In this document: positions 52,855 to 58,004 of the stretch, one piece after another
Layout of the letters: every line of letters starts with the position of its first letter
Numbering within the stretch: the first letter of the stretch is position 1
Origin: an uncultured Paracoccaceae bacterium
GTDB lineage: Bacteria > Pseudomonadota > Alphaproteobacteria > Rhodobacterales > Rhodobacteraceae
Reading direction: 5' to 3'
DNA length: 64,000 nucleotides
NCBI GenBank assembly: GCA_947500825.1
Contig: CANMTR010000003.1
Location: forward strand, 62,001-126,000
The notes under the pieces: generated by a model
The model's input: the letters and a program-made list of their open reading frames with translations, nothing else
Told to the model about the DNA's origin: nothing
The model's database searches: none
Position numbers and translations under genes: made by a program

Positions 52855-52978
52855 GGATTGCCGATGGCCGCGCCCCGCCACCGGGCGGCGGCGCGGTCGA
52901 TTCCCGCCCGTCGGCCGCTTCCGTTCCCGAAGCCGATTGGATAAGGCGGGCGCCGAGACGTTTCGAGAGAGGCATGCC

Positions 52979-54304
52979 ATGCTCCGCCGCCTGCATCACG
53001 ACCAGCCAGAGAGCTTCGAATTCACCGCCGCGAACCGGGAGTGGGCCGAGGCGCAGATGTCGAAGTATCCGGAGGGGCGGCAGGCAAGCGCCGTCATCGC
53101 GCTGCTATGGCGCGCCCAGGAGCAGGAGGGGTGGCTCACGCGCCCGGCGATCGAGCACGTGGCGGGCATGCTCGACATGGCCTATATCCGAGCGCTCGAG
53201 GTCGCGACATTCTATTTCATGTTCCAGCTCCAGCCCGTGGGGTCGGTCGCGCATGTGCAGGTCTGCGGTACCACGTCGTGCATGATCTGCGGCGCCGAGG
53301 ACCTGATCGGTGTCTGCAAGGAGAAGATCTCCGCCAGGCCGCACCAGGTCTCCCATGACGGCAAGTTCAGTTGGGAGGAGGTCGAGTGCCTCGGAGCCTG
53401 CTCCAACGCGCCCATGGCGCAGATCGGCAAAGACTACTACGAGGACCTGACGGCCGAGAGTTTCGCCGGGCTCCTCGACGACATGGCCGCGGGGAAGGTG
53501 CCGCAGCCCGGCTCTCAGACCGGACGGTTCAGTTCTGAGCCATCGGATGGCAAGACCGTGCTGCTGAAGGACCGGGTCAACGATCACAACGCCTCGGTGG
53601 ATCTGGCGCTCGAGCTCGAAGACACCCTGAAGCGCATCGACGGGACCGAGCTTCCCATCCGTGTGCCCTGGAACCCGGTGAAGGATTCGGCCGCGCGCGT
53701 GCCGCCGCCGGTGAACGACGACCTGCTGCCGCCCACGGGCGCCGACGATAGCCCGACGCCCGGAGCCAAGCCCGCCGAGAATACCCCGGTGAGCGAGGGC
53801 GGTGTCACCAAGCAGGAAGCCGAACTCGACGACAAGGGCCGTCCCGACGAGGGCGATGTGGCCTCGACGGAGGCCGACGACCAGTCGACGCCGATGTCCG
53901 ACCGTATGGAGCCGGCGGGCGGCACCCATGCCGCCTCGTCCGGCGAGGGTCGCGAGGGTTCGACCCATGACGGCGACGGACCGCTCGAAGGTTCGGGTGG
54001 AACCGAGCCGGCGGAGGATGCCGGAGCCGACGTGGCCGAAGGCGACGAGCGTCGCCCCGAGACACTGGACGCCCCGCGCGGCGGCGAGGGAGACGACCTG
54101 CAACAGATTCGCGGCATCGGCCCCAAGATCGCCGAGGCCCTTACGGCGATGGGCATCCACCATTTCGACCAGGTCGCTGGCTGGAGCCCGGAGGAAGTGG
54201 CGTGGGTTGATCGCAACCTCGATGGGGTCAGGGGTCGCGTGATCCGCGACGATTGGGTCGGGCAGGCGAAATCCCTGTTAACGGGTGGGAAGACAACCGG
54301 CTGA
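52979..54304 (+). CDS. nuoE: NADH-quinone oxidoreductase subunit E with long linker and C-terminal H3TH domain
   Basis: A 441-residue protein, about twice the length of ordinary NuoE. Residues 1 to about 190 are the 24-kDa subunit with the 2Fe-2S (N1a) ligands in [12 protein letters not shown] and [12 protein letters not shown]. Residues about 215-370 are disordered and acidic (Pro, Ala, Gly, Glu, Asp). Residues 372-434 form a helix-hairpin-helix/H3TH domain ([17 protein letters not shown], then [19 protein letters not shown]). That domain is shared with the next gene, with about 35 of 62 residues identical by eye. Such tails occur on alphaproteobacterial NuoE; their job is unknown, either DNA/RNA binding or protein docking. 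Confidence 0.93.
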
Positions 54305-54341
54305 TCCCGCGCTAGCTTGTCTTCGAGGGGCGAAGGAGAAC

Positions 54342-55424
54342 ATGCCTCGCGGAACAGGGATGGACGCTATGACCAAGCAAACTCCAAGCTCGCTTCTTCT
54401 CGTGGCCACGATCGCCGGGGGCGTCGGCTTCGTGGCGTTCGTCGCGCTGATGGTGGTCGGGGGCTACACGGTGTCGCCCGCGGCATTTCTGGCGGGACTT
54501 GTGGCCCTCGGAGTTGCGATCTTCCTGTTTCAGGGCTTCCACAAGGCCAGCCCGGCGGACGTGCCCAATCTCAAGGCTGCGGACCGTTCTGCCATGGGCG
54601 ATGTGACCCGCGAGGCCGGGTCCCTAGGCCGGGAGCCGGGGACCGCAGGTGTCGAACCCGGATCGGCCGGGATGGGGCCCACGGGGCCCGCCGGCACACC
54701 GACCATCGACCGTCCGATCGGGCCCGACGCCACGGGCAATGCAGCGGGAGGCGCTCCGCGTGCAAGCGAGGGCGGCATGCCCGACCCGGCGGCCGGGAGC
54801 GTGACGGCCAAGGAGCCCGATCAGGGACTGGCAGCTATGCCCGCCGAGTCGAAGACGCGGGACTCGGAAACCGGGAACGAATCCGGCGCGACGGAGGAGA
54901 AGACGTCCAAGGCCGGGGCGTCCGACACTGGCACCGCGGAGACCGAACGGTCCGCTGAAACCGTCCCGGAGACGAAGGCGCCGGACATCGATAGCGCAAA
55001 GACGACTGAGTCGGCCGAGCCGGAAATGGCGGACGCGCCGAAATGGTCCTCGTCCCAGCTCTCCGGGAGCGAGGAGTTGTCGAAACGCACGGGAACCTGG
55101 CGTTACGAGGGCGAAAGAGCGGCGAGTACGTCGGAGCCCAAGGGGGCTTCGGACGGCGCGCAGGTCGAGATCGGGACGGAGCCGGATCTGCTGACCGAGC
55201 CGCGCGAAGGTGGTGGAGACGACTTGAAGCGGATCAGCGGTATCGGCCCGAAGCTCGAATCCCTGCTCCACGGGATCGGGATCTTTCATCTAGACCAGAT
55301 CGCCGGGTGGAGTGACCAGCAGGTGACGTGGGTCGACGAGCGGCTCGAAGGTTTCAAGGGCCGCGTGCGCCGCGACGAGTGGGTGCGCCAGGCCGGCGAG
55401 CTCTCGGCGAGCGACCGGGAATGA
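54342..55424 (+). CDS. Membrane-anchored H3TH-domain protein between nuoE and nuoF
   Basis: A 360-residue protein. Two membrane helices lie near the N-terminus (about 16-40 and 45-65). A disordered, Ala/Gly/Glu/Thr-rich linker covers about 75-285, and an H3TH domain covers 293-354 (DDLKRISGIGPKLESLL, LDQIAGWSDQQVTWVDERL). The domain closely resembles the NuoE tail. ATG 54342 is chosen because GGAG stands before it; MDAMTKQ and MTKQ starts downstream are possible. It is 37 bases after nuoE and not a known complex I subunit. It could tether or recruit complex I components, or bind nucleic acid at the membrane; both are inference. Confidence 0.85.
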   Translation: MPRGTGMDAMTKQTPSSLLLVATIAGGVGFVAFVALMVVGGYTVSPAAFLAGLVALGVAIFLFQGFHKASPADVPNLKAADRSAMGDVTREAGSLGREPGTAGVEPGSAGMGPTGPAGTPTIDRPIGPDATGNAAGGAPRASEGGMPDPAAGSVTAKEPDQGLAAMPAESKTRDSETGNESGATEEKTSKAGASDTGTAETERSAETVPETKAPDIDSAKTTESAEPEMADAPKWSSSQLSGSEELSKRTGTWRYEGERAASTSEPKGASDGAQVEIGTEPDLLTEPREGGGDDLKRISGIGPKLESLLHGIGIFHLDQIAGWSDQQVTWVDERLEGFKGRVRRDEWVRQAGELSASDRE

Positions 55425-55442: not shown

Positions 55443-55664
55443 ATGTCTGACGACGAGTTCCAGACGGCTCGGCAAGCCCGGACCATCGGTGTCGTAATCG
55501 CGATGACGATGATCCTCTGGATGGGCGCGCAACTCTTCGGAGCATCGCTCGGACTGCCACCCCGGCTCGTTTTCGTTTTCGACGCGGCGGCACTCGTCGT
55601 CTTCGCCTGGGCACTGGTCGCGACATTTCGCATCTGGCAAAAGCGGCGCGATCGGCGCAAGTAA
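55443..55664 (+). CDS. DUF5337-like small membrane protein in the nuo operon
   Basis: A 73-residue protein with two membrane helices ([20 protein letters not shown] and [20 protein letters not shown]) joined by a short loop, and a basic end ([11 protein letters not shown]). It resembles the DUF5337 family found beside nuoE/nuoF in Rhodobacteraceae. Positive C-terminal charges suggest both ends face the cytoplasm. It starts 18 bases after the H3TH gene. Function unknown; co-expression with complex I suggests an accessory or assembly role. Confidence 0.8.
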
Positions 55665-55689: not shown

Positions 55690-56973
55690 ATGCTCGACGA
55701 CAAGGACCGCATCTTTACGAACCTCTATGGCATGGGCGACCGTAGCCTCGCGGGTGCGAAGGCGCGGGGGCACTGGGACGGCACGGCCGACATCGTGAAG
55801 AAGGGCAAGGACTGGATCGTCCAGGAAATGAAGGATTCCGGGCTGCGCGGACGCGGCGGCGCGGGCTTTCCCACGGGCATGAAATGGTCGTTCATGCCCA
55901 AGGAGTCCGATGGGCGGCCCCATTACCTGATCGTGAACGCCGACGAATCCGAGCCGGGGACCTGCAAGGACCGGGAGATCATGCGCCACGATCCCCATAC
56001 GCTGATCGAGGGGTGCCTAATCGCGTCCTTCGCGATGGGGGCCCATGCAAGCTACATCTATATCCGTGGCGAATATATCCGCGAGCGAGAAGCTCTGCAG
56101 ATGGCGATCAACGAGGCCTATGACGACGGGCTCCTCGGCAAGAACGCCGCCGGGTCGGGCTGGGACTTCGACCTCTATCTCGCGCACGGGGCGGGAGCCT
56201 ATATCTGCGGCGAGGAAACGGCACTCATAGAGAGCCTCGAAGGCAAGAAGGGGATGCCGCGGCTGAAGCCGCCGTTCCCGGCCGGGGCGGGCCTCTATGG
56301 GTGTCCTTCCACGGTCAACAACGTGGAATCCATTGCCGTCGTCCCGACGATCCTGCGCCGGGGTGCTTCGTGGTTCTCGTCCTTCGGCCGGGAGAACAAC
56401 GCTGGGACCAAGATCTTCGCGATCTCGGGGCACGTGAACAAGCCCTGCGTGGTCGAGGAGGCGATGTCGATTTCCTTCGAGGAGCTGATCGAGACCCATT
56501 GCGGCGGCATTCGCGGAGGCTGGGACAACCTGAAGGCCGTGGTGCCCGGAGGGTCGTCGGTTCCGTTGCTGCCCGGATCGACCATGAAGGGTGCGATCAT
56601 GGATTTCGACTGGCTCAAGGAAAACAAGTCCGGTCTCGGCACCGCGGCGGTCATCGTGATGGACCAGTCGGTGGACATCATCAAGGCGATCTGGCGTTTC
56701 TCGGCCTTCTACAAGCACGAGAGCTGCGGCCAGTGCACACCCTGCCGGGAGGGCTCGGGCTGGATGATGCGCGTGATGGAGAGGCTGGTGCGCGGGGAGG
56801 CGGATGTCGAAGAGATCGACATGCTGCTCGACGTCACCAAGCAGGTCGAGGGGCACACGATCTGCGCGCTCGGCGACGCCGCCGCCTGGCCGATCCAGGG
56901 CCTGATCCGGCATTTCCGAGGCGAGATCGAGGATCGCATCCGTCACAAGCGCACGCCCGTCGCTGCGGAGTGA
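55690..56973 (+). CDS. nuoF: NADH-quinone oxidoreductase subunit F
   Basis: A 427-residue subunit that binds NADH, FMN and cluster N3. [19 protein letters not shown] is the NADH/FMN motif, and [20 protein letters not shown] is also conserved. [15 protein letters not shown] plus the later THICALGD-type segment ([12 protein letters not shown]) supply the four cysteines of N3. It pairs with NuoE to take electrons from NADH. The following gap holds a small lipoprotein gene. Confidence 0.98.
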
Positions 56974-57593: not shown

Positions 57594-58004
57594 ATGAAAC
57601 CGACATTTCTTGGGGCCGTGGTCGCCTTCTCCTTTTTCGGGATCGCCGGAGCCAGTGCCGCCCAGACCCCGCTCCACGAAGACCCGACGGTCCGGCAGGG
57701 TTTCTACGCGATTGGCCTCGCAGACGAGGTACGGCGCAATTGCCCGCAGATTTCGCCGAGGCTCGTACGCGCGTATTCCTTTCTCAAATCCCTCCAGTCC
57801 TATGCCAGGGACGCGGGCTATTCCGAGGCCGACATCGAGGCATTGAGAGAAAACGATTCCGAGAGGGATGCGCTCGAGGCCGAGATCGAGGCGGATCTGC
57901 GTGCTCGGGGTGCCCAGGCGGGCAATGCCGCAGGATACTGCAAGGTGGGCCGCGAGGAAATCGCCCGTGGCACGCAGGCCGGACGACTCCTGAAAGGAAA
58001 CTGA
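57594..58004 (+). CDS. DUF5333-like exported protein within the nuo operon
   Basis: A 136-residue exported protein. Signal peptide is about residues 1-22 (LGAVVAFSFFGIAGASA, then AQ). The mature part is mostly helical, with LADEVRRNCPQISPRLVRAYSFLKSL, a YSEADIEAL helix and NAAGYCKVGREEIARGTQAGRLL; its two cysteines may pair. This pattern matches DUF5333, a Rhodobacteraceae family found in nuo operons. It lies 145 bases after the lipoprotein gene and overlaps the next start by one base. Confidence 0.82.
   Translation: MKPTFLGAVVAFSFFGIAGASAAQTPLHEDPTVRQGFYAIGLADEVRRNCPQISPRLVRAYSFLKSLQSYARDAGYSEADIEALRENDSERDALEAEIEADLRARGAQAGNAAGYCKVGREEIARGTQAGRLLKGN

Follow-up and report, generated by a model that had tools for sequence, protein, structure and literature searches.

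In the nuo operon considered here, two adjacent genes, nuoE and the gene of a two-helix membrane protein, both end in an H3TH/HhH domain carried by a long linker, which raises the question of what such domains hold on to: each other, another protein or nucleic acid. The window, i.e., the whole stretch of DNA that was analysed, comprises 64,000 nucleotides from an uncultured bacterium of the Rhodobacteraceae. A preliminary description of this DNA had proposed either a matched docking pair, or a link between complex I and nucleic acid or ribosomes. The features concerned are the following.

52979..54304, + strand: nuoE, 441 aa, a 2Fe-2S thioredoxin-like core with a C-terminal extension
53675..54073, + strand: NuoE linker, acidic and of low complexity, 133 aa, net charge -23
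54074..54277, + strand: H3TH/HhH domain of NuoE, 68 aa, delimited by BLASTP and alignment
54334..54338, + strand: AGGAG, likely ribosome-binding site ahead of the ATG at 54342, as judged from the sequence
54342..55424, + strand: protein-O orthologue, 360 aa, a two-helix membrane hairpin, a linker and an H3TH domain
54384..54542, + strand: predicted transmembrane hairpin of protein-O, from AlphaFold2 helices and a Foldseek match to 8yy9_O
54552..55199, + strand: acidic linker of protein-O, probably disordered, 216 aa, net charge -19
55056..55109, + strand: linear motif LxGxEELxxRxGxWxYE in the protein-O linker, read in the sequence
55200..55403, + strand: H3TH/HhH domain of protein-O, from BLASTP, alignment and AlphaFold2
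55443..55664, + strand: small DUF5337 protein, from a profile match, adjoining protein-O and preceding nuoF
55690..56973, + strand: nuoF, from a sequence match, which fixes the operon context

The core of NuoE matches the Pfam family 2Fe-2S_thioredx, and the translation begun at 52937 exceeds the cut-off of the NCBIfam model PRK12373 (NF009040), with 519.4 bits against 514, residues 15-453 of this translation covering positions 1-389 of the 400 of the profile. Protein-O most likely starts at the ATG 54342, behind the AGGAG, which gives 360 aa. The two H3TH domains lie in frame where the preliminary description had placed them, and its count by eye of 35 identical residues out of 62 was about right: 39 of 68 aligned residues are identical, against a maximum of 16 in 20,000 shuffles. 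BLASTP of NuoE against protein-O aligns 46 identical residues out of 85 (E 2e-29). The long linkers reported at the same time are acidic in both proteins, and the two-helix nature of the membrane protein agrees with AlphaFold2, which predicts helices at residues 6-29 and 35-58 (numbered from a start at 54369; pLDDT 81-95 over the block, except for its first ten residues), a linker with pLDDT mostly of 42-57, and an H3TH domain with pLDDT of 91-97 within the full protein. Predicted alone, as had been proposed, the protein-O domain reaches a mean pLDDT of 84 and a pTM of 0.68.

With respect to known families, the preliminary description had assigned the domain to COG3743. Neither domain of the window reaches the gathering cut-off of the Pfam HhH families searched (HHH_5, Cdd1, HHH), the best scores being 23.1 bits against 25.5 for Cdd1 and 20.5 against 27 for HHH_5 with the NuoE domain, and 14.7 against 27 for HHH_5 with the protein-O domain. 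A PHROGs search with protein-O returned zero matches, and a Foldseek search with the H3TH domain zero PDB matches at E <=0.001, the weak matches including DNA-bound HhH proteins, but also the protein-binding NusA AR2 and SAM domains. Over 101 sequences, picked as near relatives, the mean column identity of the domain amounts to 71%. Many NuoE and protein-O copies continue beyond the domain into a short tail resembling GGETEFSKRVxKGxVY, which the copies of the window do not possess.

Judged from its sequence, the membrane protein is an orthologue of the so-called protein-O of the RC-LH1 of Dinoroseobacter shibae. A phmmer search of solved structures (E <=1) with the window protein found two sequences, 8yy9_O, the 'Reaction center protein O chain' (E 4.4e-31), and 9wqv_a, named 'NADH:ubiquinone oxidoreductase 41 kd complex i subunit' (E 5.7e-29). 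Because 9wqv also includes a reaction-centre L chain and is absent, among the at most eight entries listed per row, from the 39 NuoF rows (E <=1e-100), it is taken as a second RC-LH1 entry. The position of the gene between nuoE and nuoF, the C-terminal H3TH domain recognized by phmmer and, in the AlphaFold2 prediction, the N-terminal two-helix hairpin are all of the protein-O type. Foldseek superposes the predicted hairpin onto 8yy9_O over 45 columns (rmsd 1.1, prob 0.93, TMt 0.76, with an insignificant E of 1.9), and also matches its fold to 9lts_A, a chain of 76 residues from a D. shibae RC-LH1 entry (prob 0.99, E 0.67); a sequence search with the hairpin alone found no RC-LH1 chain, 9lts_A being absent among its matches.

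According to the available text of PMC12079452, published in 2025, the hairpin of D. shibae protein-O is inserted between RC and LH1, in a position like that of protein-U, and is followed by a flexible loop and a C-terminal domain resembling the C-terminus of NuoE; the gene sits between nuoE and nuoF, a disulfide links Cys10 to Cys59, and the authors assign no function to the protein, apart from a possible role in assembly, like protein-U. Since the likeness to the NuoE C-terminus is part of that account, the pairing of NuoE with the membrane protein is already in print, and the statement that no role had been described here has to be withdrawn as far as the membrane protein is concerned. The D. 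shibae protein (ABV93056.1; PDB 8YY9, 8YZ2, 9JPB) shares with that of the window the hairpin, the long loop and the NuoE-like domain, together with the nuoE-nuoF gene place and a phototrophic host. It differs by its length, 239 aa instead of 360 aa, and by the Cys pair, which is absent from the window protein and varies in the family, and hence is not a defining character. Binding to RC-LH1 has been seen for D. shibae protein-O; the organism of the window possesses pufL/M-type genes.

As for NuoE, the chain of 239 aa in 8QBY, which we take to be complex I of Paracoccus denitrificans, is devoid of the H3TH domain, the match stopping at query residue 248, so that the solved complex I maps are silent on this domain. 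The Paracoccus denitrificans complex I, in the available text of PMC11522691, is the same enzyme as that of the window. Within the paper collection searched, none joins NuoE, H3TH and complex I; COG3743 occurs in one, and protein-O together with RC-LH1 in three, one of which appears to deal with it.

To what extent the two domains belong together was assessed in 100 genomes of the family of the window, one per genus (one genus with two), with a completeness of at least 90%. The domain is present in 92 of these genomes (E <=1e-4). The nuoE-nuoF region could be read in 98 of them, G093 (nuoE cut at the contig end) and G028 (nuoE not found) being dropped. NuoE carries the domain in 81 of the 98 nuo loci, a domain-bearing two-helix protein-O follows nuoE in 62, and both domains are present in 55; in at most ten further loci, by our reading, the place of protein-O is taken by a protein with one or two helices but no such domain. 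The co-occurrence survey suggested beforehand thus finds related domains that often stand together, but the matched pair is not obligatory, the NuoE domain occurring without a domain-bearing protein-O in 26 loci and the reverse in 7. The presence of one is only weakly associated with that of the other (odds 3.0; Fisher p 0.053, uncorrected for phylogeny), and six supported independent pairs on the NuoF tree yield a median p of 1. On the same tree, 14 changes are counted for the NuoE domain and 26 for the domain-bearing protein-O. In a class-wide survey the domain was detected in 11 of 114 genomes (E <=1e-6), a figure from which diverged copies may escape.

The sequences of the 55 genomes possessing both domains suggest that these evolve partly in concert. 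Identity between the NuoE and protein-O domains averages 0.686 within a genome and 0.643 across genomes (the within-genome value being reached in 0 of 5000 permutations), the mean identity being 0.641 among NuoE domains and 0.658 among protein-O domains. To the NuoE domain, the protein-O domain of the same genome is nearer than those of the three nearest genomes (0.654; p 4e-4, n=55), and about as near as the NuoE domains of the three nearest genomes (0.673). The two domains of one genome also resemble each other more in codon choice and GC3, and a shared composition may therefore add to the effect on mean identity. The own partner occupies a median rank of 15 of 55 and rank 1 in 12 and 8 of the 55, the partial correlation of the two domain distance matrices given NuoF is only 0.22, and the two domains of the window are only 0.55 identical in the 55-genome alignment. 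The nine domains of a third H3TH gene found in some nuo operons display no clear likeness to those of their own genome.

Exchange between carriers is apparent in several places. In a tree of 152 domains (71 columns), the NuoE and protein-O domains are not split, the supported branches forcing at least 13 label changes each, and the labels are more clustered than shuffled ones. In G094, 14 successive blocks of 20 bases (about 280 bp) show 19-20 identical bases, with a lower identity on both sides. In G117, NuoE and protein-O both carry a domain of the L21 type; these two domains share 56 of 64 residues with each other and up to 52 of 64 with L21 domains from the three other genomes in the comparison, and 54-55% on average with other NuoE or protein-O domains, the L21 of G117 itself having a shorter, divergent domain. 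Such a double replacement, like the loop-length type, does not support an obligatory matched pair: among the 49 of 55 pairs that could be scored, 34 are long/long, 3 short/short and 12 discordant, the short-loop type thus occurring in 15 pairs and on both proteins in only 3. A regex-based count (the short type on neither protein in 42 pairs, on NuoE alone in 9, on protein-O alone in 3 and on both in 1; p 0.56) found no concordance and was set aside, as it misreads at least G044. An exclusive lock between the NuoE and protein-O domains, countered by their co-occurrence, by the domain tree and by the loop-length type, is accordingly less likely.

Besides NuoE and protein-O, the domain forms the C-terminal tail of L21, S2 and single-helix proteins, and, by eye, nearly always follows a stretch that is coiled coil or of low complexity. 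The genome of the window has a third copy, which constitutes the C-terminus of its ribosomal protein L21. The L21 and S2 fusion ribosomal proteins (NCBIfam PRK12278 and PRK12311, presumably those described as 'unknown domain fusion' proteins) bear the same tail domain as the window proteins, but their host is the ribosome, and the L21-type domain of the family is, by eye, a distinct and slightly shorter sequence type. A further relative is PhaH of Caulobacter crescentus (NF045508), with a homologous C-terminal HhH domain: the NuoE domain matches positions 159-231 of the 234 of the PhaH model (E 9.2e-17) and the protein-O domain positions 154-232 (E 4.5e-14). Measured over the whole protein, NuoE (62.0 bits) and protein-O (53.2 bits) stay below the cut-off of 250 bits, so that neither is filed as PhaH, and the 100 family genomes contain zero matches above this cut-off. 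In PhaH, according to the available text of a review (PMC13052382) rather than to primary data, the N-terminus binds PHB granules and the HhH domain binds DNA non-specifically; the matches of the window proteins span only the HhH end of the model. By analogy, this offers a precedent for the link to nucleic acid that had been envisaged at the outset. Around the HhH hairpin, K10, K13 and K18 are conserved at 90% or more in the 101 domains, which speaks for DNA as the ligand; in the window K18 occurs in both copies, but position 10 is Q in NuoE and position 13 is S in protein-O. The net charge of the domain, about -1 (medians), would be unusual in a non-specific DNA binder and speaks against it.

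From these other carriers, the match to the PhaH model and the DNA binding reported for PhaH in the review, it follows as our tentative preference, at somewhat less than even probability, that the H3TH domain serves as an exchangeable tether to a ligand common to its carriers, most likely nucleic acid, i.e., the nucleoid. That one ligand serves both the NuoE and the protein-O copy, and that it is nucleic acid, is our inference, as is the role in the cell. At the complex I tip, NuoE would bear its domain at the end of a long disordered cord, and a comparable cord would connect that of protein-O to a membrane hairpin able to fit into large membrane complexes, RC-LH1 in phototrophs and another membrane complex in non-phototrophs. 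Both cords may hold bioenergetic complexes loosely to a common anchor, and only indirectly to each other, much as PhaH would hold PHB granules to the nucleoid.

A related but rather doubtful possibility is that all H3TH tails bind one protein hub, such as a chaperone, a protease adaptor, or an assembly or localisation factor, which would gather ribosomes, complex I, protein-O complexes and granules. The diversity of the hosts, the exchange of the cassette, the near-neutral charge of the domain and its weak fold match to NusA AR2 in complex with SuhB are consistent with such a hub, against which stands the DNA binding reported for the PhaH domain in PMC13052382.

It is unlikely that the NuoE and protein-O domains dock on each other, in a homotypic or mutual, SAM-like manner, and thereby link complex I to the complex of the hairpin, which in phototrophs would be RC-LH1 and would result in a loose complex I/photosystem supercomplex. 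Adjoining genes, partly concerted evolution that is absent for the third copy of the nuo operon, weak fold matches to SAM domains, and the occurrence of protein-O in the RC-LH1 structures of D. shibae and in 9wqv with its reaction centre would all agree with docking, as would a linear motif almost exclusive to the two proteins. This motif, of about 24 aa (consensus VKPSxxLAGQxELAxRKGxWxYE), occurs in the linkers of 18 of the 62 protein-O (1-3 copies each) and of 6 of the 81 domain-bearing NuoE. Six protein-O-like ORFs without the domain also have it, close to their C-terminus, which suggests that motif and domain have separable functions. Searched in the 100 genomes, it gave matches in 26, all located by frame and place in NuoE or protein-O forms save in G030, with one strong extra copy, and G084, with a sole and weak match (E 0.008); its absence from L21 in this search hints at something private to the nuo pair. 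Docking has to face, however, the 33 of 98 loci with one domain but not the other, the short-loop type shared in only 3 of 15 pairs, the low partial correlation given NuoF, the presence of the domain on L21, S2 and PhaH, and the absence of 9wqv from the NuoF rows among the entries listed. Moreover, the NuoE domain is rarer in phototrophs (25 of 36) than in non-phototrophs (56 of 62; Fisher p 0.012), pairs on the NuoF tree showing the same tendency (median p 0.25), which argues against any special complex I-photosystem link.

The proposal put forward in print, namely that protein-O serves mainly in the assembly of RC-LH1, as a subunit comparable to protein-U, its likeness to NuoE being incidental, relies on the position of the hairpin between RC and LH1 (PMC12079452) and would be in line with 9wqv as a second entry containing a reaction centre. 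The spread of protein-O in nuo operons beyond phototrophs, which is, on the sequences compared, new here, makes this very improbable. While pufL/M-type genes occur in 37 of the 100 family genomes, that of the window among them, protein-O follows nuoE in 35 of 62 non-phototrophs versus 27 of 36 phototrophs (Fisher p 0.083), which argues that its basic role is not photosynthetic, and 9 of the 36 phototrophs have no domain-bearing form at the nuo locus. On the NuoF tree, seven independent pairs on supported branches display no association with phototrophy (median p 1, at low power); a photosynthesis-specific role of protein-O, for which the association with phototrophy thus finds no support at this low power, was rejected. 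By position, both cysteines of the D. shibae pair occur in 40 of the 62 protein-O, the second only in 4 and neither in 18, and the pair is found in 24 of the 35 protein-O from non-phototrophs too. Protein-O therefore looks like a nuo-operon protein first, for which RC-LH1 is one of its places.

That the domain is a mobile C-terminal coding cassette that does little on NuoE and owes both its spread and its uniformity to recombination would suit its patchy presence on the NuoF tree, the conversion-like tract of G094 and the short protein-O forms without the domain, but is highly improbable in view of its strong conservation among the near relatives aligned and its presence on NuoE in most of the loci read.

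If the tether to a common ligand is retained, a wider and more speculative reading, which we consider possible but doubtful, is that one recombining HhH cassette on disordered cords serves in some alphaproteobacteria as a general anchor for the largest machines: the ribosome through L21 and S2, complex I through NuoE, the photosystem or other membrane complexes through protein-O, and PHB granules through PhaH-type proteins. The nucleoid would then hold respiratory as well as photosynthetic complexes, and in phototrophs complex I and RC-LH1 would share a neighbourhood, favouring quinone exchange and reverse electron flow. Should the common domain bind nucleic acid, it would attach both complex I and RC-LH1 to the chromosome, a connection of which no description was found in the literature examined, as far as its available text goes. 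Protein-O was published as a photosystem subunit without an assigned function; its presence in the nuo operons of many non-phototrophs shifts the question from photosynthesis to the placement of respiratory complexes in the membrane. Of the preliminary description, the related, co-occurring domains are upheld and the possible nucleic-acid link has a precedent; an obligatory pair is not supported, and the lack of a described role is given up.

Other arrangements of the domain were encountered. A third H3TH gene occurs in 9 of the 98 nuo loci, behind protein-O (L048 2684-3475 (-), L072 3336-4166 (+), L050 3351-4214 (+) and six more), in most cases no helix is predicted in its product, and most of the starts appear phasin-like by eye. 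A membrane protein of G157 (L140 177-1697 (+)) contains two tandem H3TH domains in one chain, and in two genomes (L057 3145-3780 and L134 3441-4031) a single-helix H3TH protein is encoded directly downstream of a protein that by eye is OmpA/BON-like. The extra motif copy of G030, a genome in which the D. shibae protein-O sequence is found in the stretches compared, lies at the N-terminus of the product of L185 2220-3221, presumably an ABC-transporter ATPase adjoining a dihydropyrimidinase-like gene.

Finally, the operon contains other small proteins. The DUF5337 protein adjoining protein-O, matched in 90 of the 100 stretches searched in the family genomes, window included, was considered as a subunit already known from the PDB and discarded as such, with zero matches in solved structures at E <=10; it is a candidate further small subunit. 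A DUF5333 protein is encoded at 57594-58004, downstream of nuoF, and the gene beyond it is presumably nuoG, which would place DUF5333 between nuoF and nuoG.
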